DNA of 54,044 nt, taken from positions 1 through 54,044 of the forward strand of contig JAIRQN010000074.1 of NCBI GenBank assembly GCA_031256445.1, read 5' to 3'. Made by a program: the position numbers and the translations under genes. Below are positions 9,003 to 48,491 of this stretch, in pieces. The notes beneath the pieces were generated by a model, which saw only the letters and a list, made by a program, of their open reading frames with translations, was not told where the DNA came from and ran no database searches. Every line of letters begins with the position of its first letter. Position 1 is the first letter of the stretch. The stretch is from Treponema sp. Lineage in GTDB: Bacteria > Spirochaetota > Spirochaetia > Treponematales > Breznakiellaceae.

Positions 9003-9016
9003 GGAAGGAGGAAATT

Positions 9017-30233: not shown

Positions 30234-30262
30234 TTGTTATAATTCATTTCCTGTGGTATAAT
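30234..30262 (+). promoter_or_regulatory. Tandem extended -10 promoters of the DUF1538-PII operon
   Basis: TTGTTA (30234-30239), a 17-bp spacer and TATAAT (30257-30262) preceded by TGG, an extended -10. The -35 box overlaps a second TATAAT (30238-30243), itself preceded by TGT. There may therefore be two start sites about 19 bp apart. Confidence 0.65.
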
Positions 30263-30300
30263 TTTGGAAAATCAGGCTTATTCCAAAACCCGGAGGGTTA

Positions 30301-31890
30301 ATGAAATTACTTCGCGTACTGAAGGAAACGTTTCTGGCGTCTCTTCCGCTTGCCGCGATAATTATAGTTGTTTGCTGTTTTATCGCGCCAATGAACAGTA
30401 TGTTCGATTATATAAAACTGATCATCGGTTACGCGGGCGTTGTTTTCGGGCAGTCCATTTTTTTGGTTGGCGTGGATATCAGTATCCTGCCGATTGGAAA
30501 AGCCGTAGGGGAATCGCTCGTTAAAATAAAAAAAGTTTCTTTTATCCTCTTCTTTGGTTTCCTGTTTGGCTTTCTTGCCACTGCCGCCGAGCCCGCTTTA
30601 ACGGTTTTTTCCAGGCAGGTAAATCTCGCGATGAATGAAATCAGCGAACGGGCGCTGCTTTTTATCATGTCCGCCGGAACAGGAATGTTCGTAGGGTACG
30701 GGCTTTACCGCATTTTGAAGGACATTAACATAAAGACAGTATTTGCCGTATTTTATATTTTAATTTTTATATTGGCGTTCTTTACGCCTGTTGAATTTGT
30801 GGGAATTGCCTTTGACGGCAGCGGCGCGACTACTGGCGATATTTCCGTCCCATTTATGCTTGCTCTTGGAATAGGCGTTTCCGTTACAATGTCAAAACGC
30901 AAATCGGACGATGACATTTTCGGCATAATCGGGCTTGCGTCAATTGGCCCTATACTTGCCGTGTTTCTATACGGAGTAATTTTTAAAATTTCGCACGGGG
31001 GAGACGTCCCTGTTCCCGGTTTTGATTATGATACCGGAGCGGTTGAAAGTTTTTCCCATGTAGCGCGGTTTAACCTGCGCGGAGTAACGCTTGCGCTTGT
31101 TCCAATCGTTCTTTTATTTTTACCGTTTCAGATATTCCTTGTTAAAATGCATAAAAAAGAATTTGTCAGGATTCTTTTCGGAAGCGTAACGGTTTTTGCC
31201 GGCCTTTTAATTTTTCTTACCTGCGTTGATTTCGGTTTTGCATACGCTGGCCAGCATATCGGCAGTTCATTTTTTGCCAGGCACAGACCCGAATGGTTCA
31301 AGTGGCTGCTTTTGGCAGTCAGCTTTATTCTTGGCGGCGCGATTACATTATCTGAACCGGCAGTTACAGTTCTTGGACACCAGCTTGAGGAAATAACAAA
31401 CGGGCACATTAAACAGATGACAATCCGCATGACATTGGCAATAGGCCTTGGTTTTGCCTCGATGATATCCATTATAAAAATTATTACGCAGATCAACCTG
31501 CTGTGGTTTCTCCTTCCGCTTTACGCGCTGGCATTGATCCTGATGAAATTTTCATCCAAAATGTTCGTAGGTCTTGCTTTTGATTCCGGCGGCGTCACTG
31601 CCGGGGGGTTGACATCGGCGTTTCTTACGCCTCTTACCCTTGGAATCGCGCAGGCAGTAAGAAATTCGGCGGAGGCAGCGGGCGGATCTCCGCAGTCTAT
31701 TCTGACAAACGGTTTCGGCATTATCGCTTTTATGTCTGTAATGCCGTTGATAGCCGTGCAGACGCTCGGCATTATTTATGAACTGCGGTTTAAACGAATG
31801 AGAGAGCAGAGTGACCGGCGCGAATTAATGGAACTTGATGAGCTGATGAATCAGAAAAATGAGATACCGGAGGAATCAAATGGCAAATGA
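30301..31890 (+). CDS. DUF1538 integral membrane protein (putative PII-regulated transporter)
   Basis: The 529-residue protein is almost entirely hydrophobic, with about 12 membrane segments. It shows the duplicated DUF1538 pattern: each half has an AEPAxTV motif (TAAEPALTVFSRQ; LSEPAVTVLGHQ) and a signature loop (VGIAFDGSGATTGDISVPFMLALGIGV; VGLAFDSGGVTAGGLTSAFLTPLTLGIAQA). The twofold pseudo-symmetry and conserved Asp/Ser/Gly/Thr loops look like a transporter or channel. The substrate is unknown. Two PII-family genes follow; the first overlaps it by 11 bp, which supports PII control of the membrane protein. RBS: CCGGAGGGTT. Confidence 0.85.
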   Translation: MKLLRVLKETFLASLPLAAIIIVVCCFIAPMNSMFDYIKLIIGYAGVVFGQSIFLVGVDISILPIGKAVGESLVKIKKVSFILFFGFLFGFLATAAEPALTVFSRQVNLAMNEISERALLFIMSAGTGMFVGYGLYRILKDINIKTVFAVFYILIFILAFFTPVEFVGIAFDGSGATTGDISVPFMLALGIGVSVTMSKRKSDDDIFGIIGLASIGPILAVFLYGVIFKISHGGDVPVPGFDYDTGAVESFSHVARFNLRGVTLALVPIVLLFLPFQIFLVKMHKKEFVRILFGSVTVFAGLLIFLTCVDFGFAYAGQHIGSSFFARHRPEWFKWLLLAVSFILGGAITLSEPAVTVLGHQLEEITNGHIKQMTIRMTLAIGLGFASMISIIKIITQINLLWFLLPLYALALILMKFSSKMFVGLAFDSGGVTAGGLTSAFLTPLTLGIAQAVRNSAEAAGGSPQSILTNGFGIIAFMSVMPLIAVQTLGIIYELRFKRMREQSDRRELMELDELMNQKNEIPEESNGK

Positions 31891-32197
31891 AAGTCCGAAT
31901 AAACTGGAGCACATGGCCGTTATAGCCGGACGCAATCTGAAAGATCAGCTTCTGACCGCGATGAACGAAAAGGGCTGCCATGTAATTAATGTTTTTTACG
32001 GCAAAGGCGCCGCAAAAGCCAGCTATATTTTGGACGCTTTTGGACTTGTCCCCGAGGAGAATAAAATTTTAATCACCTGCCTTATTTTAAACACCAAAGC
32101 GCAGGCGGTTTTTGACATGCTCATTTCGGAATTTAAATTCAATGAACCAAACACAGGTATAGCTTATCTGATTCCTGTAGATAATCTTTTGTATTAA
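31880..32197 (+). CDS. PII-family protein 1 (DUF1538-linked)
   Basis: The 105-residue protein starts at the ATG at 31880 (CCGGAGGAATCAA upstream), overlapping the DUF1538 stop by 11 bp. The longer start at 31859 would sit inside that gene without an RBS. A ferredoxin-like PII fold is suggested by HMAVIAGRNLKDQLLTAMNEKGCHVINVFYGKGAAKAS and the C-terminal strand TGIAYLIPVDNLLY, which match the PII-like beta-alpha-beta order. It lacks the uridylylated T-loop Tyr context of GlnB/GlnK. It is probably a nucleotide-sensing regulator of the neighbouring membrane protein, alone or as a mixed trimer with the next gene product. Confidence 0.7.
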   Translation: MANESPNKLEHMAVIAGRNLKDQLLTAMNEKGCHVINVFYGKGAAKASYILDAFGLVPEENKILITCLILNTKAQAVFDMLISEFKFNEPNTGIAYLIPVDNLLY

Positions 32198-32210
32198 GGA
32201 GAGTGTAAAA

Positions 32211-32558
32211 ATGGAAACCGTAGCAAATATGAAAGCCCTGCATATTGTAGTTAACGCCGGATTTACTGACGAAATAATGGAAATAATCCGGGAAGCCGGG
32301 GGAGCGGGCGGCACTATTATACACGCGCGGGGCGAAGGCTCAAAGCACCGTTCCTTTTTGGGAATTACGCTGGATTATGAACAGGAGATAATCATCAGTA
32401 TCGCCGAACAGAAAACAGCCGAGCAAATCATGGCTGATATTAAGGAAAAAGCAGGATGGAAGACCGATGTCCGCGGTTTATGCTATATGATGCCTGTAGA
32501 TAAAATAATCGGTATAAGGAATGTTGAATCTCAACAGGCCGGCAAGGAGACGGAATAA
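32211..32558 (+). CDS. PII-family protein 2 (DUF1538-linked)
   Basis: The 115-residue protein has a clear PII-family pattern: ALHIVVNAGFTDEIMEIIREAGGAGGTIIHARGEGSK at the N terminus (the GGT-x-x-HARG stretch precedes the T-loop), then FLGITLDYEQEIIISIAEQKTAEQIM and a C-terminal GLCYMMPVDKIIGI. The T-loop is short and no GlnB-type Tyr is apparent, so covalent uridylylation is unlikely. ATP/ADP or cyclic-nucleotide sensing is inferred from the family. RBS AAGGAGAG lies 13 bp after the previous stop. It is the third gene of the DUF1538-PII-PII unit. Confidence 0.82.
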   Translation: METVANMKALHIVVNAGFTDEIMEIIREAGGAGGTIIHARGEGSKHRSFLGITLDYEQEIIISIAEQKTAEQIMADIKEKAGWKTDVRGLCYMMPVDKIIGIRNVESQQAGKETE

Positions 32559-35204: not shown

Positions 35205-37136
35205 TTAAGTCAGTATAATTCTGAACGGAATTGCGGGCAAGCCGGCGCTGTTGAACAATTGCCTGTCTCTGGGGTTATCAGCCCACGCGTAAAGTATTTT
35301 TTTCGGATTTGATACCGCTGATAAATCCGCAGATATAACGTCTTTTCCAGTAATAGCAACCGGCGCGCGAATCTGCCCTTCATCGCATAAAACGCTGACA
35401 TATGCCGTGTCCTTTGCGTATAACCCATCAGCGCAGTTATCAAAGCTAATATGCAGCTTTCCATCCTTAACATTAAACCCTTTAACTGTAGGTCCCGGAG
35501 ATGAATTTTCCGCTCCATATAAAACCCTGTCGGCAGCCAGAAACAGGCGTATGCCTACTCCTTTTTTATTCAAAGGGTGCAGGTCGTTCCATTCGCCGAG
35601 TTCCAAAGCGGCGGCCATGCCTGTAGCCGGAAGAGACAGCGCCGCTTTTTGAGCTTCTCTTATCGCCGCCCATGAAGAATTTTCATCGTTATCCGAGATT
35701 TCTTTCCAGATCGGAAGCTGGACAAAGAAGAAGGGCAGTCCGCTGCAGCCGTTTTTCTCTCTCCAGTCCTGTATCATGGAGGTAAACATCTGCGCGTAGC
35801 TGCCGGAACTGGAATCGTTTGATTCGCCCTGATACCAGATAACGCCTTTAAGCGGGTATTTTAAAACCGGAGCTATCATCGCGTTGTAGTTTCCGAATGG
35901 CAGCCGCTGAAAGAAAAATTCCCCAGGACGCGTTTGGGCGGAGCAGCCAATCATACGCTTCCATGTTCCTGCAAGTTCAAGGCAAAAATTGCGCGGAGAA
36001 GCGGGTTGAGAGGAAATTTCCGCGCCGCGGGATTCCTGATTATCCGCGAACAGACTGAAATGTTTATCGCGCGTAAAGCCTCCTTCTCCGTTGTTGCAGA
36101 TAACTCTTATAGTAATGCGGTTTTTTCCGGGTTTAAGAATGCCTTTTTTTACAGGGTATTTCCGCGGCGGATACCGGTAGCCGGTATTGCCAACCTCGGT
36201 GCCGTTAACATAAACCGTGTCTGAATCAACTATTGTGCCAAGCCATATTTTCGCGTCTTTTTCCGCAAAATCCGCCGGTATTTCGATATCTTTGGCAAGC
36301 CAGATTATTCCGCAGAAAGATTTAATTCCTGAATCTGCAAAATCCCCGGGTAGGGTAATGTCTTCCCATTCGCGAATATCGGTTCCGGGATCTTTCCAGT
36401 TATTCTTAATGCCTGAATCTTCACGTAACAGTTTTTGCTCCCACTCTTGAATCGCGAAAGCCGCGTTTTTCACCGTTTCTTCGCGCACTGCCGCGTCCGC
36501 GTATTGCATGCCTTCGGCAGTTTTTTCCGGAAAATCCGCGAGAGCTTCTTTGCTCATCCATGATTCAATTGGAGTCCCGCCCCAGGCAGTCATAAGAAGG
36601 CCGACAGGGACGCGGTACTTTTTGTGCATTTCCTTCGCGAAAAACCACGCTGTCCCCGAAAATTCGTGAAGTGTATTCTCCGCCGCTTTTTGCCAGCAGC
36701 CGCCTGAAAAATCATCGCGGACAGCGGCAAAATCCCACTGTTGAGGGACTTTAAACTGCCTGATTAAGGAGAAATTAATATCACTTTTGTTAACTGCGAT
36801 ATTATTACGGTTAACATCATCCCATTCTTCGCTGAAATCATCGCGAAGACGCTGCATCATGAGCTCCATATTGCTCTGACCGGCGCAAAGCCACACATCG
36901 CCGCTGTAGATATCCCGTATGGTTACTTTTTCATCGTCAGATGAAATATCCATTGTGAAAGGGCCGCCGGCGCAGGCAGGATCAAGCATTATCAGGAATT
37001 TGCCGTTAACGCTTTTTGATTCATAGGTTTTGCCCAAAAAAACAACAGTTATTCTTTTCCGGCTCCATACAGGGAATGAAGCGTCCCGCTGTATAACCAA
37101 CCCGTCACTTAAAAATGGAGATAAAAAATCGTTCAT
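35205..37136 (-). CDS. SGNH-type (sialate O-acetylesterase family) carbohydrate esterase
   Basis: The start is the ATG at 37136, which overlaps the GH43 stop (ATGA) and gives 643 residues. The longer TTG-start version has no support. Family blocks are present: VWLCAGQSNMELM (Ser88 nucleophile), VIWYQGESNDSS, and NDLHPLNKKGVGIR with the catalytic Asp/His pair. An inserted beta-sandwich (VYVNGTEVGNTGYRYPP, GKNRITIRV) resembles the sugar-binding domain of GH2. No signal peptide is seen, so it acts in the cytoplasm. With GH43 upstream it probably removes acetyl groups from imported xylo-oligosaccharides. Sialic acid as substrate is possible but not favoured by context. Confidence 0.85.
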   Translation of the reverse strand: MNDFLSPFLSDGLVIQRDASFPVWSRKRITVVFLGKTYESKSVNGKFLIMLDPACAGGPFTMDISSDDEKVTIRDIYSGDVWLCAGQSNMELMMQRLRDDFSEEWDDVNRNNIAVNKSDINFSLIRQFKVPQQWDFAAVRDDFSGGCWQKAAENTLHEFSGTAWFFAKEMHKKYRVPVGLLMTAWGGTPIESWMSKEALADFPEKTAEGMQYADAAVREETVKNAAFAIQEWEQKLLREDSGIKNNWKDPGTDIREWEDITLPGDFADSGIKSFCGIIWLAKDIEIPADFAEKDAKIWLGTIVDSDTVYVNGTEVGNTGYRYPPRKYPVKKGILKPGKNRITIRVICNNGEGGFTRDKHFSLFADNQESRGAEISSQPASPRNFCLELAGTWKRMIGCSAQTRPGEFFFQRLPFGNYNAMIAPVLKYPLKGVIWYQGESNDSSSGSYAQMFTSMIQDWREKNGCSGLPFFFVQLPIWKEISDNDENSSWAAIREAQKAALSLPATGMAAALELGEWNDLHPLNKKGVGIRLFLAADRVLYGAENSSPGPTVKGFNVKDGKLHISFDNCADGLYAKDTAYVSVLCDEGQIRAPVAITGKDVISADLSAVSNPKKILYAWADNPRDRQLFNSAGLPAIPFRIILT

Positions 37137-38749
37137 TCCAAACCTCTGTATTCCGCCCAAAAAATATCGGCGTAATTATCCGTGTCTTTTCCGCCGCCGG
37201 CGGCGAAAACGCCGGCCAATGAGCCGACAAATCCGCCTGCGTATTCGGTGCTTAAAATTCGCGCGTCAATGCCGTCAATAAAGCAGGTTAGCGAGTACTG
37301 ATCATTTCCGTAAAAGAAGGAAATTTTCATTTCTTCGCAGCATGCCGCAAGGACGATTTTTGTTCCTGCCGCGATAAATTCACTTAAAGCGATTATTTCG
37401 TCTTCATTGCCGGCGGCTTTTATCAGACGAAGCGAAGTGTTGCCGGAAGAAGAAAAACACTGTTCAAAACGGTAGTGCCAGTCTTCGTTTTGCAGCAATA
37501 CTATTCCTGCGGTTTCCCCGGCTGTCTTTGGCGAGAATTCCAGTGAGACAGTGAATGTCCAGTTACTGTGCCGTAACCTTCTTCCGGCAAAAGCGGGATG
37601 CCCTTTACTGCGAATAGTCTGCGCTTTAGCGTACAAACGCAGCGTATCCCCGCGCTCTGTCAAACTGAAAGCGGCGTCTTTTTCATTTGCAGGATGCCGC
37701 AATGTCAGCCAATGAAGCGGAAGTTTTGAAATGTTAAAATGATCGCACCCGCTTTCATAAAGCCAGTCCCATGTTGGCTGTCCGGCTGTGAATACGCCGC
37801 TGTCAACTGTTATTTGTTTTTCTACAATTCCTGTCTCTGTCGCTATACACGGCCAGCCGTTTTCCCAAATGACAGGAACCATGAATGTTTCGCGCCCAAG
37901 AGGGCAAACACCGTCAAAAGGACGGGAGGCAAGAAGTACCATCCACCAGTTTCCGGCCAGGTCGTCTGTGATATCCGCGTGGCCAGCGTTTATAATACGC
38001 GCCCTTTTTCCAAGATGCCTGTGCGTTAAAATGGGGTTGCTTTTCTTTCCTTCCCATGGCCCTGTAATTTCCTTTGCCCGCGCTGCGCATATCGCGTGAT
38101 CAATACCCGTTCCGCCTTCGGCGTGCAAAAGGTAATAGTAACCGTTAATTTTATAAATGTGCGGGCCTTCCGGCCAGACAGTATCGCGTAACGCGCCGCG
38201 CCAGATACCGGCGGATGAGGCGGTTTTCCCTGTCAGAGGATTTTTGCCGGCCGCAAGCAAATCCATGTCCAGTTCATGAATGTATATTTCATAATTGCCC
38301 GGATACGCTTCGCCTTCAGGCGCCGGATGGGTTCCTGTGTACCAGGCTTTGCCTGTATCGTTATCAAAAAAAATTGAAGGATCTATTCCGTCAGCGCCTT
38401 TAAGCCAGACTGGATCAGACCACGGCCCTGCCGGGTCTTTTGCCGTTATTATAAAATTTCCGCCCGTGTCTATTAAAGTGCAGACGATATAAAAAATTCC
38501 CCTGTTATAACGGATTGTCGGCGCGAACAGCCCGCGGGAAATGCCGTGCCCGTCATAACATATCTGTCCGGGCCTGTCTATGGCGTTTGCTATTTGCTTC
38601 CAGTGTATCAGATCTTTGCTGTGAAAAACCGGAAGACCGGGAAAATAGGCGAAAGTGGAATTAACAATATAAAAATTACCGCCTTCACGGCAGATTGACG
38701 GATCAGGGTAAAAGCCGCTTAAAACAGGATTATTAAATATTCTTTTCAT
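37133..38749 (-). CDS. GH43 beta-xylosidase / alpha-L-arabinofuranosidase family protein
   Basis: The 538-residue enzyme has the five-bladed propeller residues of GH43: Asp16 in YPDPSI (general base), Asp123 in DGIDPSIF (pKa modulator) and Glu194 in VWPEGPHIYK (general acid). The C-terminal half (about 330-538) is a beta-sandwich with WDWLYESGCDHFNISKLPLHWLTLRHP, the usual accessory domain of the XynB-type subgroup. No signal peptide, so it should hydrolyse imported xylo- or arabinoxylo-oligosaccharides. It heads a leftward operon (esterase coupled by ATGA, then nadE), diverging from the cytoplasmic GH5 gene across only 60 bp. The RBS is weak (ATAAAAGA). Confidence 0.9.
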   Translation of the reverse strand: MKRIFNNPVLSGFYPDPSICREGGNFYIVNSTFAYFPGLPVFHSKDLIHWKQIANAIDRPGQICYDGHGISRGLFAPTIRYNRGIFYIVCTLIDTGGNFIITAKDPAGPWSDPVWLKGADGIDPSIFFDNDTGKAWYTGTHPAPEGEAYPGNYEIYIHELDMDLLAAGKNPLTGKTASSAGIWRGALRDTVWPEGPHIYKINGYYYLLHAEGGTGIDHAICAARAKEITGPWEGKKSNPILTHRHLGKRARIINAGHADITDDLAGNWWMVLLASRPFDGVCPLGRETFMVPVIWENGWPCIATETGIVEKQITVDSGVFTAGQPTWDWLYESGCDHFNISKLPLHWLTLRHPANEKDAAFSLTERGDTLRLYAKAQTIRSKGHPAFAGRRLRHSNWTFTVSLEFSPKTAGETAGIVLLQNEDWHYRFEQCFSSSGNTSLRLIKAAGNEDEIIALSEFIAAGTKIVLAACCEEMKISFFYGNDQYSLTCFIDGIDARILSTEYAGGFVGSLAGVFAAGGGKDTDNYADIFWAEYRGLE

Positions 38750-38809
38750 TCTTTTATCATATCATTTTTTAACGTTTTATTGTAAGATAAGGCATCAGGA
38801 GAATTATAT

Positions 38810-39832
38810 ATGGCAAAAACGCTTCCATTTTCCAAAGGGGTAAATTTTTCAAAATGGTTTGAATTTCGCAGTGTAAAGGAAATTCAGTTCGAAAGATATA
38901 CAGAGCAGGATTTTATAAATGTAAAAAGCCTCGGAGCCGATGTAATACGGGTTCCTGTAGCCGTGCATAATTTTACAACTAATAATAATCACACCCTTGA
39001 TCCCCTGTTATTAAAATACCTTGATACGGCTGTTGACTGGGCGGAAAAACGCCAAATGTTCATAATTCTGGATAACCATTCTTTTCATCCCATTGAGCCG
39101 ACAGACGTAAACATAGACAGAATACTTCTTCCTGTCTGGGATCAGATTGCGCGTCATTTTAGGGATCGAAGCGGTTATGTTATTTATGAGGTACTGAATG
39201 AGCCTCACGGAATTCCCGATGAAAGATGGGGTTGTATTCAGGAAGCGGCGGTTGAAACAATCCGCAGGATTGATCAGAAGCGCGCTGTCATAGTCGGCGG
39301 AACAAATTATAATTCAATCGAAAAATTATTTTCCATTCCTGAATATAAAGATGTAAATTTAATTTATACGTTTCACTATTACGATCCGCATCTTTTTACC
39401 CATCAGGGCGCGACATGGAACAAACCTTCTTTGGCGCCGTTATCCGGCCTTCCGTTCCCGGCCGATAAAAACCGCATTCCCAAACCTCATGACAGTTTTA
39501 CCGGAACATGGGTGGAAAAATGCCTTGAAAATTACATGAATGACGCAAATCCGGACAAACTCAGCGCCGCATTGGACAGGGCGGCTGCTTTTGCCAAAGA
39601 AAGGGATGTTCCGGTTTTTTGCGGAGAGTTCGGCGTATTTATTATTCAGAGCCCGCCGGAAGATCGCGTAACCTGGTACAAGTTTACATGTGACGCGCTT
39701 AACAGGCTTGATATTCCCTGGACTTGCTGGGATTATTACGGAGGTTTCGGCCTTTTTAAAACAGTTTCGGCAAGGGATTTTAATACAGAGCTGAATGTTG
39801 ATGTAGTACGCGCGATGGGGTTTAACAGGTAG
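38810..39832 (+). CDS. GH5 family glycoside hydrolase, cytoplasmic form
   Basis: The 340-residue protein is a single (beta/alpha)8 GH5 domain from its first residues (LPFSKGVNFSKWFEF). The acid/base is Glu131 in YEVLNEPHG and the nucleophile Glu273 in VFCGEFGVF; LDNHSF and YTFHYYDPHLFTHQG are also typical. It lacks a signal peptide and would act on imported beta-glucans or gluco-oligosaccharides, as an endoglucanase-like or beta-glucosidic enzyme. RBS AGGAGA. The next gene is a lipoprotein paralogue 45 bp downstream, so this is a tandem duplication with different locations. Confidence 0.87.
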   Translation: MAKTLPFSKGVNFSKWFEFRSVKEIQFERYTEQDFINVKSLGADVIRVPVAVHNFTTNNNHTLDPLLLKYLDTAVDWAEKRQMFIILDNHSFHPIEPTDVNIDRILLPVWDQIARHFRDRSGYVIYEVLNEPHGIPDERWGCIQEAAVETIRRIDQKRAVIVGGTNYNSIEKLFSIPEYKDVNLIYTFHYYDPHLFTHQGATWNKPSLAPLSGLPFPADKNRIPKPHDSFTGTWVEKCLENYMNDANPDKLSAALDRAAAFAKERDVPVFCGEFGVFIIQSPPEDRVTWYKFTCDALNRLDIPWTCWDYYGGFGLFKTVSARDFNTELNVDVVRAMGFNR

Positions 39833-39877
39833 TGTGCAGTGTTAAGTGAAATATATTTTTATTGGGGGAAATATTTA

Positions 39878-41602
39878 ATGAAGGTTTTATTTCTAATGGC
39901 GGCTGTTATACTTGCAGCCTGCAGTTCTACGGAGCAGGGCGCTTCGGGCGCCCCGCAAAGGGCAGCAGAGCCAATAGTTGTTCCAAAAGAAACAGGGCCT
40001 GTGGACGCTGTTATGCGATCTACGCCGTTTTCCAGAGGCGTGAATTTTTCCGGATGGTTTGAATCTTTCAGCGCGCAGTCGATACCGTTTACCAAATACA
40101 GCGAACAGGACTTCGCGAATGTAAAAAGCCTTGGCGCTGATGTAGTACGCCTTCCTGTAAGAATGCACAGTATGACAGACGGATCTCCGAATTACAGGCT
40201 GGACCCGCTCTTGTTGAAATTCCTCGATTTTGCGGTTGATTGGGCGGAAAAGCACGAAATTTACCTGATTATTGACAATCATTCTTTTGATCCTGTCGCA
40301 AAAACGAAAGATGACACAGACACGATTCTTGTTCCTGTCTGGGAACAGATTGCGCGGCGTTACAAGGACAGAAGCGATTTAATCGTATACGAAATACTAA
40401 ACGAGCCGCACGGTATTTCTGACAAAAGGTGGGGTGAAATTCAGGGGCTTGCGATAGACGCGATCCGCAGACATGACAAGAAACACGCGATAATTGTAGG
40501 AGGCACTGAATACAATTCAATCGGAAAATTAAACGCGATTCCGCGCTATTCCGATGATAATTTAATTTATACATTTCACTTTTACGATCCGTACCTGTTT
40601 ACGCATCAGGGAGCAAGCTGGGGCAGCCCTCCGGTGCTTACAACTCTTGCCGCCGTTCCGTTTCCAGCGGATCGCAGACGCATGCCGAAAATTCCGGACA
40701 ATTTAAAAGGAACATGGATCGAAAACTCATTGAATAACAGTTACTGGCATGACGCTTCTCCGGCCGCGCTGTACGTTACTCTGAACAAAACCGTGGCTTT
40801 TTCCAGAGAGCGGAATGTACCCGTTTTCTGCGGGGAGTTCGGCGTATATTTAATTAACTGCCTGCCTGAAGACCGCGTAAGGTGGTATGATTTTGTCACT
40901 GACGCAATGGAAAGGCGGAACATTTCGCGTACAAGCTGGGATTATTACGGGGGTTTTGGAATATTCAATTCCGAAGGCCGCGGAGATTTTAACAGCGATC
41001 TTAATGTTGACATTGTACGGGCTTTGGGTTTTACTCCCCCGGCGCAGATGCCGCGCATTGGCGGGCCTTTAGAATCGGGCTTTTATCTTTACGATGATTA
41101 CCCTAACCGTGTTCTTTCTGCCGGAAGCTGGGGAAACAATACTGATTTCAGTTTATATGATACAAAATCCGCAAGCGGGGATTTCGCCATAAGGTGGGCA
41201 AACGCGGATCAGTACAATGTTTTCTGGTTCGGTTTTGACAAATTAGAGGATTTCAGCAACCTGCTTGAAGCAGGCTTTAAACTGGAATTTACGGCAAGAA
41301 CGGAAAAACCTGTTCAGTTTGACATACGGTTTGTCAATCCCGAAAGCCATGAGAGCATACCCTGGCGGATGCGTTACACGATAGACGATAAAATACTTCC
41401 GCCTGACGGAAAGTGGCACACTGTAAGCATTCCTCTTTCGCAGATGAAGGAACACGGGGCATGGGTAAACGCAAAACAGGAATGGATAGGTCCGAAAGGG
41501 GAATTTTCATGGAAAAAAATAAAGCAGCTTGAATTTGTCGCCGAGTACGGAAACATGAAAGACCTTTGCGTGTGGTTTGATTCAATAGAGATCAAATATT
41601 AG
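39878..41602 (+). CDS. GH5 lipoprotein with C-terminal beta-sandwich domain
   Basis: The ATG at 39878 (GGGGGAA upstream) begins the lipoprotein signal MKVLFLMAAVILAAC, with Cys15 lipidated. A longer in-frame start at 39839 would put 13 residues ahead of it. A linker (about 16-48) leads to a GH5 domain closely similar to the preceding gene, with Glu176 (YEILNEPHG) and Glu320 (VFCGEFGVY). From about residue 395 follows a beta-rich domain (SGFYLYDDYPNRVLSAGSW ... CVWFDSIEIKY), the layout of carbohydrate-binding modules. The lipid anchor and extra domain suggest cleavage of insoluble or polymeric beta-glucan at the surface. Its 3' end overlaps the convergent regulator by 11 bp. 574 residues. Confidence 0.88.
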   Translation: MKVLFLMAAVILAACSSTEQGASGAPQRAAEPIVVPKETGPVDAVMRSTPFSRGVNFSGWFESFSAQSIPFTKYSEQDFANVKSLGADVVRLPVRMHSMTDGSPNYRLDPLLLKFLDFAVDWAEKHEIYLIIDNHSFDPVAKTKDDTDTILVPVWEQIARRYKDRSDLIVYEILNEPHGISDKRWGEIQGLAIDAIRRHDKKHAIIVGGTEYNSIGKLNAIPRYSDDNLIYTFHFYDPYLFTHQGASWGSPPVLTTLAAVPFPADRRRMPKIPDNLKGTWIENSLNNSYWHDASPAALYVTLNKTVAFSRERNVPVFCGEFGVYLINCLPEDRVRWYDFVTDAMERRNISRTSWDYYGGFGIFNSEGRGDFNSDLNVDIVRALGFTPPAQMPRIGGPLESGFYLYDDYPNRVLSAGSWGNNTDFSLYDTKSASGDFAIRWANADQYNVFWFGFDKLEDFSNLLEAGFKLEFTARTEKPVQFDIRFVNPESHESIPWRMRYTIDDKILPPDGKWHTVSIPLSQMKEHGAWVNAKQEWIGPKGEFSWKKIKQLEFVAEYGNMKDLCVWFDSIEIKY

Positions 41603-42269
41603 CGACTGAATGGTTTGTCCACTCAATCGCCAGCTGCCGCAGTTCCTGGGACGTGTTGCAGTGCAGCTTCAGTTTTATATGCTCTTTATGGGTATCAATT
41701 GTCTTTGTGCTTAAATTGAATTTAGACGCTATCTCAATGGTTCCGTATCCCTTGCCGATCATGGAAAACACCTGAAATTCCCTGTCAGAAAGCCTCCGCA
41801 AAGACGCGGTAAAATCTTTTAAACCGCCTGAGCTTTCTCCTGTCATGGCCTGAAAAATGCGTTCCCTTTCATTTTCGCTTAAGTATACTTTTCCTGAAAT
41901 GACAGTCCTGATGGCGTCCATTACAATGTCATGCGAGGCGGATTTCATGACAAACCCGCGCGCTCCAAGACGCAGAATTCTCTCTGAATAATAACGTTCA
42001 TCGTGCATTGAAAGAATTAAAATGACAATTTCCGGATTTAAGGATTTCAGTTCAGAAATCAAATCCATGCCGTTTTCTTCGCCAAGATGAATTTCCATTA
42101 CAACAAGCCTGGGTTTTTCCTTTTCGGCGATTCTGATCGCGCTTTCCGTGTTTGACGCTTCGCCTGCTACGGCAAATCCCGGAGTGTCTTCAATCAGGGA
42201 AGACAGTCCTTTTCTGAAAAGAGGATGATCGTCAACGATTAATATTTTAATATTTCCGGTTCTTGGCAT
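41592..42269 (-). CDS. NarL/FixJ-type response regulator with Glu in place of the phospho-acceptor Asp
   Basis: The 225-residue protein has a receiver domain (8-125) and a LuxR-type HTH (about 160-220: LSDREFQVFSMIGKGYGTIEIASKFNLSTKTIDTH). The acidic pair Asp13-Asp14 (IVDDHP), Ser87 and Lys109 are in place, but the phosphorylation site reads VVMEIHL, with Glu59 (codon GAA) instead of Asp. The substitution often mimics the phosphorylated state, so the protein may be constitutively active or use another cue. There is no histidine kinase in the window. It sits between GH5 and CE4 genes and diverges from the latter, which suggests it may control the hydrolase cluster. Confidence 0.9.
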   Translation of the reverse strand: MPRTGNIKILIVDDHPLFRKGLSSLIEDTPGFAVAGEASNTESAIRIAEKEKPRLVVMEIHLGEENGMDLISELKSLNPEIVILILSMHDERYYSERILRLGARGFVMKSASHDIVMDAIRTVISGKVYLSENERERIFQAMTGESSGGLKDFTASLRRLSDREFQVFSMIGKGYGTIEIASKFNLSTKTIDTHKEHIKLKLHCNTSQELRQLAIEWTNHSVANI

Positions 42270-42302
42270 ACAAATTTACTATCCTTTTTTCCTTATGTTA
42301 AT

Positions 42303-42326
42303 TATAGTACAATTTACCTATAGTAC
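42303..42326. promoter_or_regulatory. Direct repeats TATAGTAC between divergent regulator and deacetylase genes
   Basis: TATAGTAC occurs at 42303-42310 and 42319-42326, 16 bp apart. The intergenic region separates the response regulator from the CE4 gene. The repeats are on one helical face within about 1.5 turns, so they are a candidate operator, possibly for the adjacent LuxR-type protein. Confidence 0.3.
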
Positions 42327-42380
42327 TCTATCGTCATTTTTTTTACAATACATTTTCAAAAAGAATATTGGGAGAAAATT

Positions 42381-43187
42381 ATGAAGAAAATACGCGCATT
42401 GGTTTTATTATCGTTAATTACGGTATTTTTCGGCTGCGCCGGCGCCGCGGGCACAAGGGAAAACAAAGGAGATATAATGGTTTACGCCTATACAAAAGCG
42501 CAGATTGAACAGGAAATTGATAATAATTGGCGGGCTATGGGTTACAGTTCAAGACCGGATAAATTTATCGCGATAAGTTTTGATGACGGACCGTGCGGCC
42601 CTTCGGCAAGCGGAGGCACACAGGCAATGCTTGATAAACTGGACGAATTGAAAATAAAAGCCACTTTCTTTTTAATCGGGCAGAATATCCGCGCAAACAA
42701 AGCCGAAGCGCGCTCAATTTTTAACGCAGGCCATGAACTGGGCAATCATTCAAACAGCTATTCTTCGCTCGGCAAAGCAGATAAAGAGGATATTGAGGAA
42801 AGCCTTGATTCCGCTTCTTTGTTAATCAAGGAAATAACAGGAAAAAATCCGCCGCTTTTCCGCGCGCCGAACCTGAACCACGGCATTGAATTAACGCAGG
42901 TTTGCATGGAAAGAGGCATGTCGTTAATTGACGGCAGCGTTCACGGCGACTGGGACGGAACAGGACATACGCCGCAATCAATTACGGAGAGCGTACTGTC
43001 AAATCCGCGGGACGGGCAGATAATTATTCTTCACGAGAACAATACGTCAAAAGGCAATACAATGGAAGCACTCGCCGGTATAACAGCCGGGCTGCGTGAA
43101 AAAGGTTTCTGGATACTGAGCGTAGGCCAGCTTGCCGCGGTAAAAGGAGAGACGCTGGAAGCCGGAACACGCTACAGTTCAATATAA
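42381..43187 (+). CDS. CE4 polysaccharide deacetylase lipoprotein
   Basis: Signal peptide with lipobox VFFGC, Cys19 lipidated; 268 residues. The NodB domain has ISFDDGP (Asp68/Asp69), ATFFLIGQN, GHELGNHSNSYSSL, RAPNLNHG and IIILHEN near the C terminus (catalytic His). In the second metal motif the first His (His123) is kept, but the usual second His is Tyr127, so the zinc site may be altered. In a xylanase cluster it is most likely an acetylxylan or chito-oligosaccharide deacetylase at the cell envelope. RBS GGGAGAAA. It is divergent from the response regulator. Confidence 0.83.
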   Translation: MKKIRALVLLSLITVFFGCAGAAGTRENKGDIMVYAYTKAQIEQEIDNNWRAMGYSSRPDKFIAISFDDGPCGPSASGGTQAMLDKLDELKIKATFFLIGQNIRANKAEARSIFNAGHELGNHSNSYSSLGKADKEDIEESLDSASLLIKEITGKNPPLFRAPNLNHGIELTQVCMERGMSLIDGSVHGDWDGTGHTPQSITESVLSNPRDGQIIILHENNTSKGNTMEALAGITAGLREKGFWILSVGQLAAVKGETLEAGTRYSSI

Positions 43188-43232
43188 ACTGTATCAGCGG
43201 GCTAAAATTACGCGCTTTATGTTATGTGCAAA

Positions 43233-44789
43233 TTATCTGACATTCCCGTAAAAAGTGCTTACGGATTTTGAAGGCAGAATAACATCTGCGGTATTCGCGG
43301 ACACTTTTTGCTTTCCAAGCGGTTTCAAATCTTCCTTATCGGATGTACGCCATGATTCAAGTTCCTTAAATTCCGCGTCATGCAAAACCAGATGAATTGA
43401 AACTGCCGCGGGTCTGTCGTTGATTATTACTACCGCGATTTCACCGGAGCCGGGATTTTTGTAGGCGCTTGAGTATACCCCCGGAAGCGGGGCAGTGTCA
43501 CAGTCTATTCTCAGCCATCCCGGACGGATAAAACGCGAATACTGCCCAACCGTGTAAAGCCGTTTTGAGGTATTTACAATATCATAATCAACCTGAACAA
43601 GGCTTCCGGGAAAATTTTTTTCACTGTCATTCCGCCAAAGCCACCAATACAGAAAAGCGTTTATCTGGGCATAGGTAAAATCGAAGTGAATCATTCTCGC
43701 GTAATAGAGGGCGTTCTCAATTCCCTCTCCAGGCGGAAGATTTGGGCCTGAGCCGCTTACTTCAGTCTGCCAGTAACGTTTGCCCGAAGAGATAATTCCA
43801 GCGTGTTCAAGAGCTCCGGCTCTTGCCGAGCTGTCGTAAGCGCCGTTGTACTGATGAAGGGCGATATGTGTCAGCACTTTTTCCGACTGCTCGTTTGAAA
43901 GAGACGGTTTTATCAGTTCATTGAAATTGACATTGAAATTCTCGAATTCAGGAGCCATTATGGAAAGCCCTCCCGCTCCGGGAATAACGCCCTTTTGCGG
44001 GAAACGCCGGCCAATTATTATCAGAAAATCGCGGATATCTTCTCCGTTCCAGTAGGCGGATTCATAATTTACCCTGTAATTAGGTTCGTTCTGTATGGAA
44101 AGAATCTCCAGAGGGGCGCCCATCATGGAGGCGAAATTTTTCGCGTAGTCGGCAAGAAGATCCGCGTAATCTTCGAATTTATCTCTTTTGAGCCTTCCCC
44201 AAACATCCGGCGTATTCCAGTTAATATTTCCGTCATATCTGGCGCCGGCGCCTGTGACATCTTCTTTCCACTGCGTTACGCGATTATTGGGCGTAGTCCA
44301 GGGAGTGCTCATTACAGTCAGCTTTTCCGGTCCGTCGCTTCCCAAATCATTTATTCTTTTAATTAAATTTCTTGTGCCGGACAAATCCCAGCTTTGCCAG
44401 TTTAAATTAAAAGTTTTAACGCCATTATCATCTGTTGCATAATCGTATGATCCGTCGCTTTTCCTGACCAAAAATCCGTCGTTATGGGAAGGAGTGTCGT
44501 CATTTTCCAGCCTTTCGCGGAACGGGATCCGGTTTCGCAGGATGGTTAAGCCGATTCCCTGCGTTCTGGAATAGAGAAGTTTTACCAATTCATCCGCGGC
44601 ATCCCCGTCTCTTGGGACGCCTGTCCATGCGTTTGATCCGCCGAAACCGTCAATCTGCTGGCGGGAGGCGCTGTAATTGATATTTACTGTCCCTTCTTTT
44701 GTTGTTTTGACGGCGGAAGAAGTTGCGCAGGATAAAACGGCGGAAAATATTCCTGTTAAAATAAAAAATTGTAAAAGTATTCTTTTCAT
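43233..44789 (-). CDS. GH30 family xylanase-like lipoprotein
   Basis: The 518-residue lipoprotein (AVLSC, Cys21) has a (beta/alpha)8 domain with acid/base Glu235 in LSIQNEPNY and nucleophile Glu343 in YWQTEVSGSG. IDGFGGSNAW near the N terminus and the C-terminal side beta-sandwich (PGWLRIDCDTAPLPGVYSSAYKNPGSGEIAVVIIND) match GH30, most like the glucurono(arabino)xylan endo-xylanase subfamily. That subfamily cuts xylan next to methylglucuronic acid branches, which fits the GH67 alpha-glucuronidase nearby. The start codon abuts the GH10 stop without a gap, so the two xylanases are translated from one message. Confidence 0.85.
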   Translation of the reverse strand: MKRILLQFFILTGIFSAVLSCATSSAVKTTKEGTVNINYSASRQQIDGFGGSNAWTGVPRDGDAADELVKLLYSRTQGIGLTILRNRIPFRERLENDDTPSHNDGFLVRKSDGSYDYATDDNGVKTFNLNWQSWDLSGTRNLIKRINDLGSDGPEKLTVMSTPWTTPNNRVTQWKEDVTGAGARYDGNINWNTPDVWGRLKRDKFEDYADLLADYAKNFASMMGAPLEILSIQNEPNYRVNYESAYWNGEDIRDFLIIIGRRFPQKGVIPGAGGLSIMAPEFENFNVNFNELIKPSLSNEQSEKVLTHIALHQYNGAYDSSARAGALEHAGIISSGKRYWQTEVSGSGPNLPPGEGIENALYYARMIHFDFTYAQINAFLYWWLWRNDSEKNFPGSLVQVDYDIVNTSKRLYTVGQYSRFIRPGWLRIDCDTAPLPGVYSSAYKNPGSGEIAVVIINDRPAAVSIHLVLHDAEFKELESWRTSDKEDLKPLGKQKVSANTADVILPSKSVSTFYGNVR

Positions 44790-45923
44790 TTATTGCCGGT
44801 TAATGAAAGACTGCGGATTGGACACAGCGTAAAAAGCCTTTTTAGGCTGCAGGTTTTCGTTAAAAAGGCAGGGAAACTGCCCGCGTCTCCAGCTTGTATT
44901 GTCGTCAATTCCCCACATGGTTACGCGCTTTATCCGGTTATCATACTGTTCATTAAGCCTGACATAAAGATCAAAAAGCTGCGCATATACCAGAGCCTGA
45001 GCGTCCAGCATCGAAGAAGTGTTATTGGGAATTGTTATATCCATTTCCGTTATGGAAACTTCAATTCCAAGCCTGAGAAAATTCTCAATATTATTTTTAA
45101 CATTATTGAAATTTCCGGCGTTCCACCAGCTTAAACCGTAATGGGTCTGCAATCCGACGCCTTCGACAAGAAACCTGTCATAATCAGGATCTGTTTCCCT
45201 CTGTTCAGCTAACCATCTGGTGTTGATATCATTTACCATATTTCTGACAGCTTTCGCTTTTGAAGGATTATTAAGATCAAAATCATTGTAGTAAAGAATC
45301 GCGCCCGGATCAGCCGTTCTTGCGGTACGGAACGCCAGCTCTATATAAGTCATTTCATCGGTGCTTGCCTTGTTCCAGTTGATCTGTTCCGCTGTGCGCA
45401 AACCCGATTTCCACTCAGTGTCATTTGTTATCGGTACGTTAAAAGGATACAAAAACGCTTCATTTACGACATCCCATGCGTGAATTCTTCCCCTGAAATG
45501 CCCCGCGACATCTGTAATATATTTAACAAGGTTCGCCCTGACCTGTTCATTTGTGCCGGATGTTAACCAGGCCGGCGATTGAGAATGCCAGACAAGAGTA
45601 TGGCCGATAACTGTCATGCCGTTGGCAATCATATTATTGACCATATTGTCCGCGGCTGAAAAGGTGTACGAATTTCTGGCAGGCGCAAGATAATTCGGCT
45701 TCATGTCGTTCTCGCATGTTACGGCATTGTAATGTGTTTTAAGCAGTTGAAAATGCATGCCGGATAAATATGTTGAGTTAACGATGTTTCCGATTAAAAA
45801 ATCGTTTTCGTAAATCTTCCAGAGTTTTTCTTCTTCCGGAACAAAATACGGCTCAGACTCGGAACAGCTTGCGGCCAATAAAACGAAAGAAACAGCAAAC
45901 GCGGCGAATATTTTTTTAAACAT
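44790..45923 (-). CDS. GH10 endo-1,4-beta-xylanase lipoprotein
   Basis: The 377-residue lipoprotein (LLAASC, Cys20) shows the complete GH10 signature: VTCENDMKPNYLAP, IGHTLVWHSQSPAWL, WDVVNEAF with acid/base Glu155, and VSITEMDI with nucleophile Glu293. LYYNDFDLNN is a further family block. It is anchored at the envelope and would cleave xylan backbones to xylo-oligosaccharides. It is the first gene of a leftward pair with GH30. The start has the RBS AGAGGTG; 162 bp separate it from the divergent GH2 gene. Confidence 0.93.
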   Translation of the reverse strand: MFKKIFAAFAVSFVLLAASCSESEPYFVPEEEKLWKIYENDFLIGNIVNSTYLSGMHFQLLKTHYNAVTCENDMKPNYLAPARNSYTFSAADNMVNNMIANGMTVIGHTLVWHSQSPAWLTSGTNEQVRANLVKYITDVAGHFRGRIHAWDVVNEAFLYPFNVPITNDTEWKSGLRTAEQINWNKASTDEMTYIELAFRTARTADPGAILYYNDFDLNNPSKAKAVRNMVNDINTRWLAEQRETDPDYDRFLVEGVGLQTHYGLSWWNAGNFNNVKNNIENFLRLGIEVSITEMDITIPNNTSSMLDAQALVYAQLFDLYVRLNEQYDNRIKRVTMWGIDDNTSWRRGQFPCLFNENLQPKKAFYAVSNPQSFINRQ

Positions 45924-46053
45924 AAATTAACACCTCTGTTTTCAGTATTTTATTTAACAATGCCATGAAATTCCGTTTTTTTCAATAGAGCGGTTGTCTG
46001 TTTATAAACCGCGGCGAATGAATTTTTCGCGGTTTTCGGAACAGATAAATATA

Positions 46054-46062
46054 TGTTATAAT
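46054..46062 (+). promoter_or_regulatory. Extended -10 promoter of GH2-GH67
   Basis: TGTTATAAT: a perfect TATAAT at 46057-46062 with TG one base before. The -35 region (TTTCGG at 46034) is weak, as is common with extended -10 promoters. The GH2 start codon is 24 bp downstream. Confidence 0.5.
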
Positions 46063-46085
46063 AAACATCCAATACAGGAGGGAAA

Positions 46086-48476
46086 ATGAAAGACGCACAG
46101 GCGGCGCTGTTTAATAAAAACTGGAAGTTTCTTTTGGGGGACGCCAAAAACGCGCATATCGAAAATTTTAACGATCGTACATGGAAAAGCGTTGATCTTC
46201 CCCATGACTGGGTAATTGAACAGCCTTTTGACAGGGGTGAACATAATGGCTATACAGCCCAGAATATGCAGGGATTTTTCGCGTGGAGAGGCGTTTGCTG
46301 GTATCGAAATGAATTTATTGTACCTGATATTGCCGGAAACGCGGCATATCTTTACTTTGGCGGGGCTTACCGCAATATTACGGTTTATGTTAACGGTAAA
46401 GAAGCGGGGAAGCGCGCATACGGCTATTCAAGTTTTGAGCTTGATATTACTGATTACATAAAAGAAGGGATGAACCTTATCGCGGTACGGCTGGATAACG
46501 GCTGCGAGGAGCCGGATCGCTGGTATTCGGGAAGCGGATTGTTCAGAAATGTTTATTTGAAGATTGCCCCTTTTACGCATATCAAAACATGGGGCATCCA
46601 TGTAAAAACAAAACTGGCCGCAGGCAGGAAACACGCGGATGTTACGGTAACAGCCTCTATTGTTAACAGAAAAGCCGTTAAAAACGGCAATAAGGAGAAC
46701 GCGGCGAACATAAAATTATTCTCTGTGGACGGCAGTATCGCGGCGGAAGCTGATATTCCATATAACATTGACGGAAAGGAAGAAATAACCGTAACGCATA
46801 AATTCCGCATTGATAATCCGGTTCTTTGGTCCGCGGATGCTCCTTATTTATACCGCGCCGCCGTTCATCTTAAATCCGTAGAAAACTCGAAAATCTTCGG
46901 ATTCACCCTGCACGGGTCGCTTCTTAAGGGCGATGGAGAGAAAAATTCAGCAGAGGTCAGCTTTGGCATCCGTACCGTGGAAATTGCGTATAACAAAGGA
47001 ATGACCGTAAACGGAGAGAAAGTGAAACTGAAGGGAGTCTGCCTGCACCATGACAGCGGCATTACAGGCAGCGCTTACCATGACGCTGTATGGCGGAGAA
47101 GACTTTTAATCCTTAAAAGCATCGGCTGCAACGCGGTAAGGACAAGCCACAATCCTCCCGCCGAAGAATTTCTTGATCTTTGCGACGAACTTGGTTTTTA
47201 CGCGGTGGATGAATGTTTTGATAAATGGAAAAGCGGCTATTACGGCTCTCACTTCGACGCGGACAGCGAACGCGATTTAACGGAATTTATTATACGTGAC
47301 AGAAACCATCCCTGCGTAATTTTATGGAGCGTAGGCAACGAAGTGGAGAATCAGGGAGCGGACAGCATGCTTGAAATACAAAAAAAACTTGTAAATATCG
47401 TACGCGGCCTTGACGACCGTCCTGTTACATGCGCTCTTTCTCCCCACGCGAATCCAAGGAGCCTTGTGTGGGCTCCCGCGAAGGAACTTGTCCAATTAAC
47501 CAAAAAACTTGGCAAAGACGTGGACGTTCTCGGTCTTAACTACCATGAGCCGCTGTATCAGGCGTACACCGAGGGAATTGAAAAACCTATTCTTGGAACC
47601 GAGTGTTATGAGTATTACTGCGGAACCGCTTTGAATTTTGAGGATGTTACAAATAAAAACCCCTGGCGTTATGTGCTTGAAAACAACAATGTGATAGGCC
47701 AGTTTATATGGGCGGGAATCGACTATCTTGGAGAGAGCTGCTGGCCGGCAAAAGGCTGGGCAGGCTCCATTCTGGATATCTGCTGTTTTTTAAAGCCAAA
47801 CGCCTATTACAGGAGAAGCATCTGGACAGACAAACCCATGATCTACATGGCGTTTAATGATCAAAATAAAAAAAATGATTACACGCGCGGCCGCTGGTCA
47901 TTTCCTCCTTTAACGTCCCATCTTAACCACGATCATTTTAACCGGCGCACTGTGACAGCCGTTGTTTTTACCAACTGCGAAGAAGCGCAGCTTTGGATAA
48001 ACGGCAAGAAAAGGGGAAATAAAAAAGGCGCTGATTTTGAGAACGGCATTATTGAATGGGTTTTTGAATACGCATCCGGAAATATCGAAGTAAAAGGATT
48101 AAACGGCGGCGCGGAAGTCTGCTCTTATGTATTGGAAACGGCGCAGCAGGCGCAGAAGATAAAATTAACCGCGGACAAGAAAGAGCTAAAATATGATGAT
48201 ATCGCTCATATAGAGGTAAATGTTACGGATAAAAACGGTATACTCTGTCAAACTGAAGATCATTTAATTGAATTTACCCTGACAGGAGACGGAAAAATAC
48301 TGGGAGCGTGTTCCCCCGATTTAAACCAGAGTCTTGGATTCACGCTTCCAAAGGCTGTAACGTCAGAAGGGAAAGCGCTTGTGATGATCAAGGCGGGCGG
48401 CTTGTCCGGGAATCTTGAGTTATTCGCGTATTCGGAAAAACTGGAAAAAACTTCGCTGCGCTTTAAAGTCAGGTGA
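46086..48476 (+). CDS. GH2 family glycoside hydrolase (beta-galactosidase-like)
   Basis: The 796-residue enzyme has a sugar-binding jelly roll (1-160: DWVIEQPFD, YSGSGLFRNVYL), an Ig-like domain, and a TIM barrel from about 300 (LKGVCLHHDSG, NAVRTSHNPP). The acid/base is Glu419 in WSVGNEVEN and the nucleophile Glu506 in LGTECYEYY. A C-terminal Ig-like domain (IKLTADKKELKYDDIAHIEVNVTDKNG) follows, the layout of Bacteroides/Thermotoga-type GH2. No signal peptide, so cytoplasmic. Beta-galactosidase is the safest label, but GH2 also contains beta-glucuronidases and mannosidases. RBS AGGAGGG. GH67 follows after 15 bp. Confidence 0.87.
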   Translation: MKDAQAALFNKNWKFLLGDAKNAHIENFNDRTWKSVDLPHDWVIEQPFDRGEHNGYTAQNMQGFFAWRGVCWYRNEFIVPDIAGNAAYLYFGGAYRNITVYVNGKEAGKRAYGYSSFELDITDYIKEGMNLIAVRLDNGCEEPDRWYSGSGLFRNVYLKIAPFTHIKTWGIHVKTKLAAGRKHADVTVTASIVNRKAVKNGNKENAANIKLFSVDGSIAAEADIPYNIDGKEEITVTHKFRIDNPVLWSADAPYLYRAAVHLKSVENSKIFGFTLHGSLLKGDGEKNSAEVSFGIRTVEIAYNKGMTVNGEKVKLKGVCLHHDSGITGSAYHDAVWRRRLLILKSIGCNAVRTSHNPPAEEFLDLCDELGFYAVDECFDKWKSGYYGSHFDADSERDLTEFIIRDRNHPCVILWSVGNEVENQGADSMLEIQKKLVNIVRGLDDRPVTCALSPHANPRSLVWAPAKELVQLTKKLGKDVDVLGLNYHEPLYQAYTEGIEKPILGTECYEYYCGTALNFEDVTNKNPWRYVLENNNVIGQFIWAGIDYLGESCWPAKGWAGSILDICCFLKPNAYYRRSIWTDKPMIYMAFNDQNKKNDYTRGRWSFPPLTSHLNHDHFNRRTVTAVVFTNCEEAQLWINGKKRGNKKGADFENGIIEWVFEYASGNIEVKGLNGGAEVCSYVLETAQQAQKIKLTADKKELKYDDIAHIEVNVTDKNGILCQTEDHLIEFTLTGDGKILGACSPDLNQSLGFTLPKAVTSEGKALVMIKAGGLSGNLELFAYSEKLEKTSLRFKVR

Positions 48477-48491
48477 CGATCCGGAAAAATT

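Follow-up and report, generated by a model that had tools for sequence, protein, structure and literature searches.

A DUF1538 membrane protein and two PII-family proteins form a recurrent gene unit and a candidate PII-gated antiporter in Treponema

What might a membrane protein of the DUF1538 family be doing directly ahead of two genes for PII-family proteins? The question arises from a 54,044-nucleotide stretch of Treponema sp. DNA (GenBank assembly GCA_031256445.1, contig JAIRQN010000074.1), called the window here, in which an earlier note had proposed a new PII-controlled transporter. The locus comprises the following features.

30234..30262, + strand: sigma-70-like promoter, TTGTTA-N17-TATAAT with TG before the -10 element (pattern scan; consensus only)
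30301..31890, + strand: two-domain DUF1538 membrane protein, 529 amino acids (PF07556, NCBIfam, AlphaFold2)
31771..31887, + strand: charged C-terminal tail of the DUF1538 protein, codons 491-529, following the last conserved Gly
31880..32197, + strand: PII-a, 105 amino acids (sub-threshold Pfam P-II match, same-slot homologues, fold model)
32211..32558, + strand: PII-b, 115 amino acids (Pfam P-II match above cutoff)

The DUF1538 stop and the PII-a start overlap by 11 bp (31880-31890), and a 13-bp gap (32198-32210) separates PII-a from PII-b, in agreement with the spacing given in the note. Shine-Dalgarno-like motifs lie ahead of the DUF1538 gene (GGAGG, 30292-30296), PII-a (GGAGG, 31869-31873), and PII-b (AAGGAG, 32196-32201). 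The claim that the operon has its own strong promoter is borne out to the extent that a pattern scan, which considers consensus only, scores the promoter-like site at 10 of 12 matches, tied for the best in the region. A divergent ankyrin-repeat gene lies upstream of the trio, which is followed by a tRNA and an AICARFT/IMPCHase gene. A phage origin was rejected, as there was no PHROG match. DUF1538 matches were also seen in unannotated phage-labeled records (H10-H15), where they may represent bacterial DNA.

The DUF1538 protein matches two copies of PF07556 with 389 bits (curated cutoff, 22.6), and its first half is UmpA-like and its second half UmpB-like (177 and 140 NCBIfam bits, respectively). 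UmpA and UmpB of Halomonas zhaodongensis are characterized DUF1538 members, and the heterodimer that they form is a Na+(Li+,K+)/H+ antiporter (PMC5484666); the earlier description of a new transporter with an unknown substrate is therefore unsupported. Family homology suggests that the window protein exchanges a monovalent cation for H+; nevertheless, the equivalog cutoffs are missed widely (NF041627 and NF041628; 177.4 versus 490 and 139.8 versus 500), and so the ion is not safely transferable from UmpAB. DUF1538 is also among the features associated with pH adaptation in a machine-learning study (PMC13255231). The AlphaFold2 model (pLDDT 93.6) resembles approximately seven spans per half, with broken helices, in line with the seven transmembrane segments published for each of UmpA and UmpB (PMC5484666), which makes the previously proposed 12 spans doubtful. 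A sequence search for a relative with a solved structure found none, and the model has no clear fold match in the PDB (Foldseek best E of 0.023; VIA best Z of 4.6), although a missing match is not proof of a new fold.

The two small proteins differ in how readily they are recognized as members of the PII family. PII-b is a clear homologue, passing the P-II model (PF00543) with 39.2 bits against a gathering cutoff of 25, and its profile similarity to SbtB is weak. PII-a is a weak homologue, reaching only 15.9 bits against the same cutoff. An iterated HMM search groups it with PII-b, and its homologues occupy the same slot in 26 other loci of the window type. The AlphaFold2 model of PII-a (pLDDT 85) has a beta-alpha-beta-beta-alpha-beta order, a ferredoxin-like fold that is common to PII and other proteins; it matches the PII-like structure 2cz4 with a Z of 11.2 and CPII and SbtB with a Z of 10.9, scores with which many unrelated ferredoxin-like domains tie.

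Residues were compared with those of Escherichia coli GlnB, the sequence of which was verified against 1pil. The T-loop Tyr51 column holds I, V, or L in the PII-b type and G in PII-a, confirming the reported absence of this Tyr from both proteins, and the GlnD uridylyltransferase domain, said to be missing from the neighborhood, was not found anywhere in the 98%-complete genome. On these two grounds, uridylylation of PII-a and PII-b is unlikely. The same alignment fails to uphold the alternative that the note had drawn, control by nucleotides: the Lys90 equivalent is mainly I or V, and the equivalents of Arg101 and Arg103 are unconserved or absent in both PII classes. In the Lys58 column, a Lys or Arg is conserved. 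Any ligand is probably held other than through the canonical ATP phosphate residues.

Neighborhoods were surveyed using loci from 29 of 60 relatives searched, a phylum sample of 295 genomes (DUF1538 present in 116), 80 named genome contigs, and plasmid records. We counted two-domain DUF1538 genes followed by 250 bp or more of sequence (n = 177; three more loci stop at a contig edge), in a sample biased toward Spirochaetota and Bacillota (109 of the 177 are spirochaetal) and with the Gammaproteobacteria that carry true UmpAB left out. A PII gene is immediately downstream of or fused to DUF1538 at 170 of these loci, comprising 110 with tandem PII-PII proteins, 29 with long PII proteins, most of which have two or three detected domains, 27 with two separate PIIs (the window type), 3 with DUF1538-PII fusions, and 1 with a single PII before the contig end. 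PII is absent at the other seven. Clustering at 90% identity leaves 158 of 165 clusters with PII and 7 without, and the median spacing between DUF1538 and PII is -4 bp. The C-terminal domain of the tandem proteins is PII-b-like in 111 of 111 cases, and, in the reverse direction, 25 of the 26 strong PII-b matches in the 60 relatives adjoin DUF1538. Split UmpA and UmpB genes followed by PII occur on two alphaproteobacterial plasmids (Methylocystis and Chelativorans). Chance adjacency is rejected by these counts, as is a lone quirk of the window by the spread of the pairing across Spirochaetota, Bacillota, and other phyla. The note's own refuting condition, namely, that DUF1538 genes elsewhere would mostly be without PII neighbors, clearly failed at these counts. 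What is supported in the proposal of a PII-controlled transporter is a dedicated PII-DUF1538 unit; the unknown substrate, the nucleotide control, and the 12 spans are not supported. Although RefSeq annotates both neighbors, the link between them does not appear in the portions of the DUF1538 literature available to us, and PII gating of ion transport by DUF1538 proteins is apparently undescribed so far. As a separate observation, a protein of approximately 373 amino acids with three PII-like domains follows a long DUF1538 protein (630 to 730 amino acids) at L066, L183, L184, L188, L193, and other loci, and it could possibly be a single-chain PII trimer.

Fusions and the C-terminal tail bear on how the partners might meet. 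At the Lutispora (L074) and Scatolibacter (L083) loci, the DUF1538 C terminus continues into PII-a, with PII-b separate; in the spirochaete locus L160, a tandem PII precedes a DUF1538-PII fusion. L074 and L083 branch as sisters in the tree and probably represent one event, giving at least two fusion events in total. The tail is 31 to >100 amino acids long in all PII-linked members of the window clade and only 10 to 14 amino acids long in three PII-less members. These three form one clade, and thus the loss of tail and PII may have been a single event. We regard the tail as a candidate docking segment for PII.

The origin of the window copy was judged from our tree, a quick reconstruction with some long branches. 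The window protein groups with that of G006, and it shares with L065 a 34-row clade (SH-aLRT 99) in which 32 rows are nonspirochaetal, nearly all of them Bacillota. Most relatives in the genus carry a different DUF1538 type, with tandem PII. Horizontal acquisition is the simplest reading, and the trio was probably acquired from gut Bacillota.

Among Spirochaetota, two separate DUF1538-PII clades adjoin genes of the S-adenosylmethionine (SAM) cycle, namely, metK in the family of the window and pfs-luxS in Treponemataceae. Such loci include L036-L051, L107, L124, L142, L205, and L206, together with L060, L061, L109, L128, L144, L145, L171, L210, and L213-L215; birA also lies nearby in the pfs/luxS clade. 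An Rfam scan upstream of DUF1538 at 32 loci found no SAM riboswitch, nor a riboswitch of any kind. Genus g17 has an intact tandem PII, still flanked by the same genes, where no DUF1538 was found, in the order pfs-luxS-PII-PII-birA in one species (G058) and pfs-PII-PII-birA in another (G276), at the following coordinates.

L216 4453-5064, - strand: tandem PII-PII, no DUF1538 found in the genome
L217 ~3804-4448, + strand: tandem PII-PII, no DUF1538 found in the genome

The retention of the tandem protein in these two species of one genus indicates that the association of this PII type with DUF1538 is not strict.

Known PII-transporter systems offer partial likenesses. A review names ammonium, nitrate, urea, and bicarbonate systems as transporters under PII control, and GlnK-AmtB and SbtB-SbtA are precedents for dedicated pairs (PMC10710835). 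As in GlnK-AmtB, a dedicated PII adjoins the transporter; however, AmtB is an ammonium channel, and neither the uridylylated Tyr nor the ATP phosphate residues are present in the window PIIs. SbtB likewise is a noncanonical PII-like partner of a transporter, that of bicarbonate, but SbtA belongs to another family, and SbtB forms one homotrimer rather than two PIIs or a tandem or triple chain. PII-NG is a PII homologue linked genomically to the proton/cation antiporter CzcABC (PMC7726332), an RND metal pump with a single PII. UmpAB itself shares the Pfam family, and the window halves match UmpA and then UmpB, whereas in the window both halves are fused in one chain that scores below the equivalog cutoffs and has two PII genes beside it; the term PII is absent from the main text of the UmpAB paper (PMC5484666).

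We favor, with moderate confidence, the reading that the trio is a PII-gated UmpAB-like antiporter that was acquired horizontally. The membrane protein would be a secondary transporter of the UmpA-UmpB type, fused in one chain, with monovalent cation/H+ antiport as its most likely activity. PII-a and PII-b would probably assemble into a mixed oligomer that binds to its cytoplasmic face, at or near the C-terminal tail, and the docked PIIs would open or close the antiporter according to a small-molecule signal. This reading is based on homology, cross-phylum gene order, fusions, and one clade in which tail and PII have been lost together; from these, we infer the transported ion, the physical binding, the direction of control, the stoichiometry, and the ligand.

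Among other explanations, we give most weight, while still considering it unlikely, to a transporter with a substrate other than Na+, K+, or H+ and a PII pair that reports not on nitrogen or ATP but on the SAM cycle (SAM, SAH, or MTA). Two separate spirochaete clades beside different SAM-cycle genes would fit, as would the tandem PII of g17 that stays beside pfs, and unconserved phosphate-binding residues would be in keeping with an adenosyl ligand that has no triphosphate. However, neighbors are inherited together within a clade, Bacillota loci and the window showed no SAM-cycle cluster nearby, no SAM riboswitch was found at the 32 scanned loci, and cation/H+ antiport is the activity published for the family. 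A wider proposal, in which a bacteria-wide ion antiporter with a predicted fold lacking a clear solved match is controlled by paired, tandem, or triple PII-like domains that sense an adenosyl metabolite of the SAM cycle instead of ATP or 2-oxoglutarate, is a long shot. Sensing of c-di-AMP or a cyclic nucleotide by PII-a and PII-b, with regulation of K+/Na+ balance, ranks next after the first of these and is also improbable. c-di-AMP regulates other K+ transporters, the PII-like proteins SbtB and PstA sense nucleotides, and the genome encodes a single diadenylate cyclase domain along with seven class III cyclase domains; yet such cyclases are common and hence weak evidence, and nothing points directly to a c-di-AMP site.

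It is a little less probable again that the PIIs are merely cotranscribed with a constitutive antiporter and act on other targets. The tandem PII of G058 and G276 and the seven DUF1538 loci without PII agree with separate targets, but the fusions, the near-universal adjacency across phyla, the joint loss of tail and PII, and the fact that 25 of the 26 strong PII-b matches adjoin DUF1538 all argue otherwise. Classical nitrogen-related PII control of an ammonium-like transporter is very improbable, despite the homology of PII-b to PF00543. The canonical T-loop Tyr, Lys90, Arg101, and Arg103 are absent, as is any detected GlnD domain. The note was correct that no ammonium transporter is nearby, in that the trio has none, but the genome does hold one Amt match elsewhere, with its own PII domain: at 34532-36121 on contig C62 of the genome (G000; seen at L003, L006, and L072), an ammonium transporter and a canonical PII domain share one 575-amino-acid open frame, apparently, by coordinates only, a natural Amt-PII fusion. 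Classical nitrogen PII is thus separate from the trio.

If, as our preferred reading holds, a monovalent cation/H+ antiporter is gated by PII in Spirochaetota, Bacillota, and others, then PII signaling would reach the homeostasis of pH and of Na+ and K+. Tandem and triple PII chains pose the question of how PII oligomers match the transporter, and the C-terminal tail and the natural fusions of DUF1538 with PII offer short constructs that are directly testable.

Several other features were observed in the same genome. A 90-amino-acid PII-like open reading frame on contig C30 (L071 5162-5434, - strand) adjoins one of AcrB size (1,068 amino acids) and recalls the PII-NG/CzcABC arrangement. Within the window, two very long open reading frames (2763-9002 and 8984-14950; 2,079 and 1,988 amino acids) have no Pfam match at an E value of 1e-5. 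Positions 35208-50501 hold a predicted xylan/glycan degradation cluster with GH43, two GH5, GH30, GH10, GH2, and GH67 enzymes, an esterase, and a deacetylase, as well as a LuxR-type response regulator.
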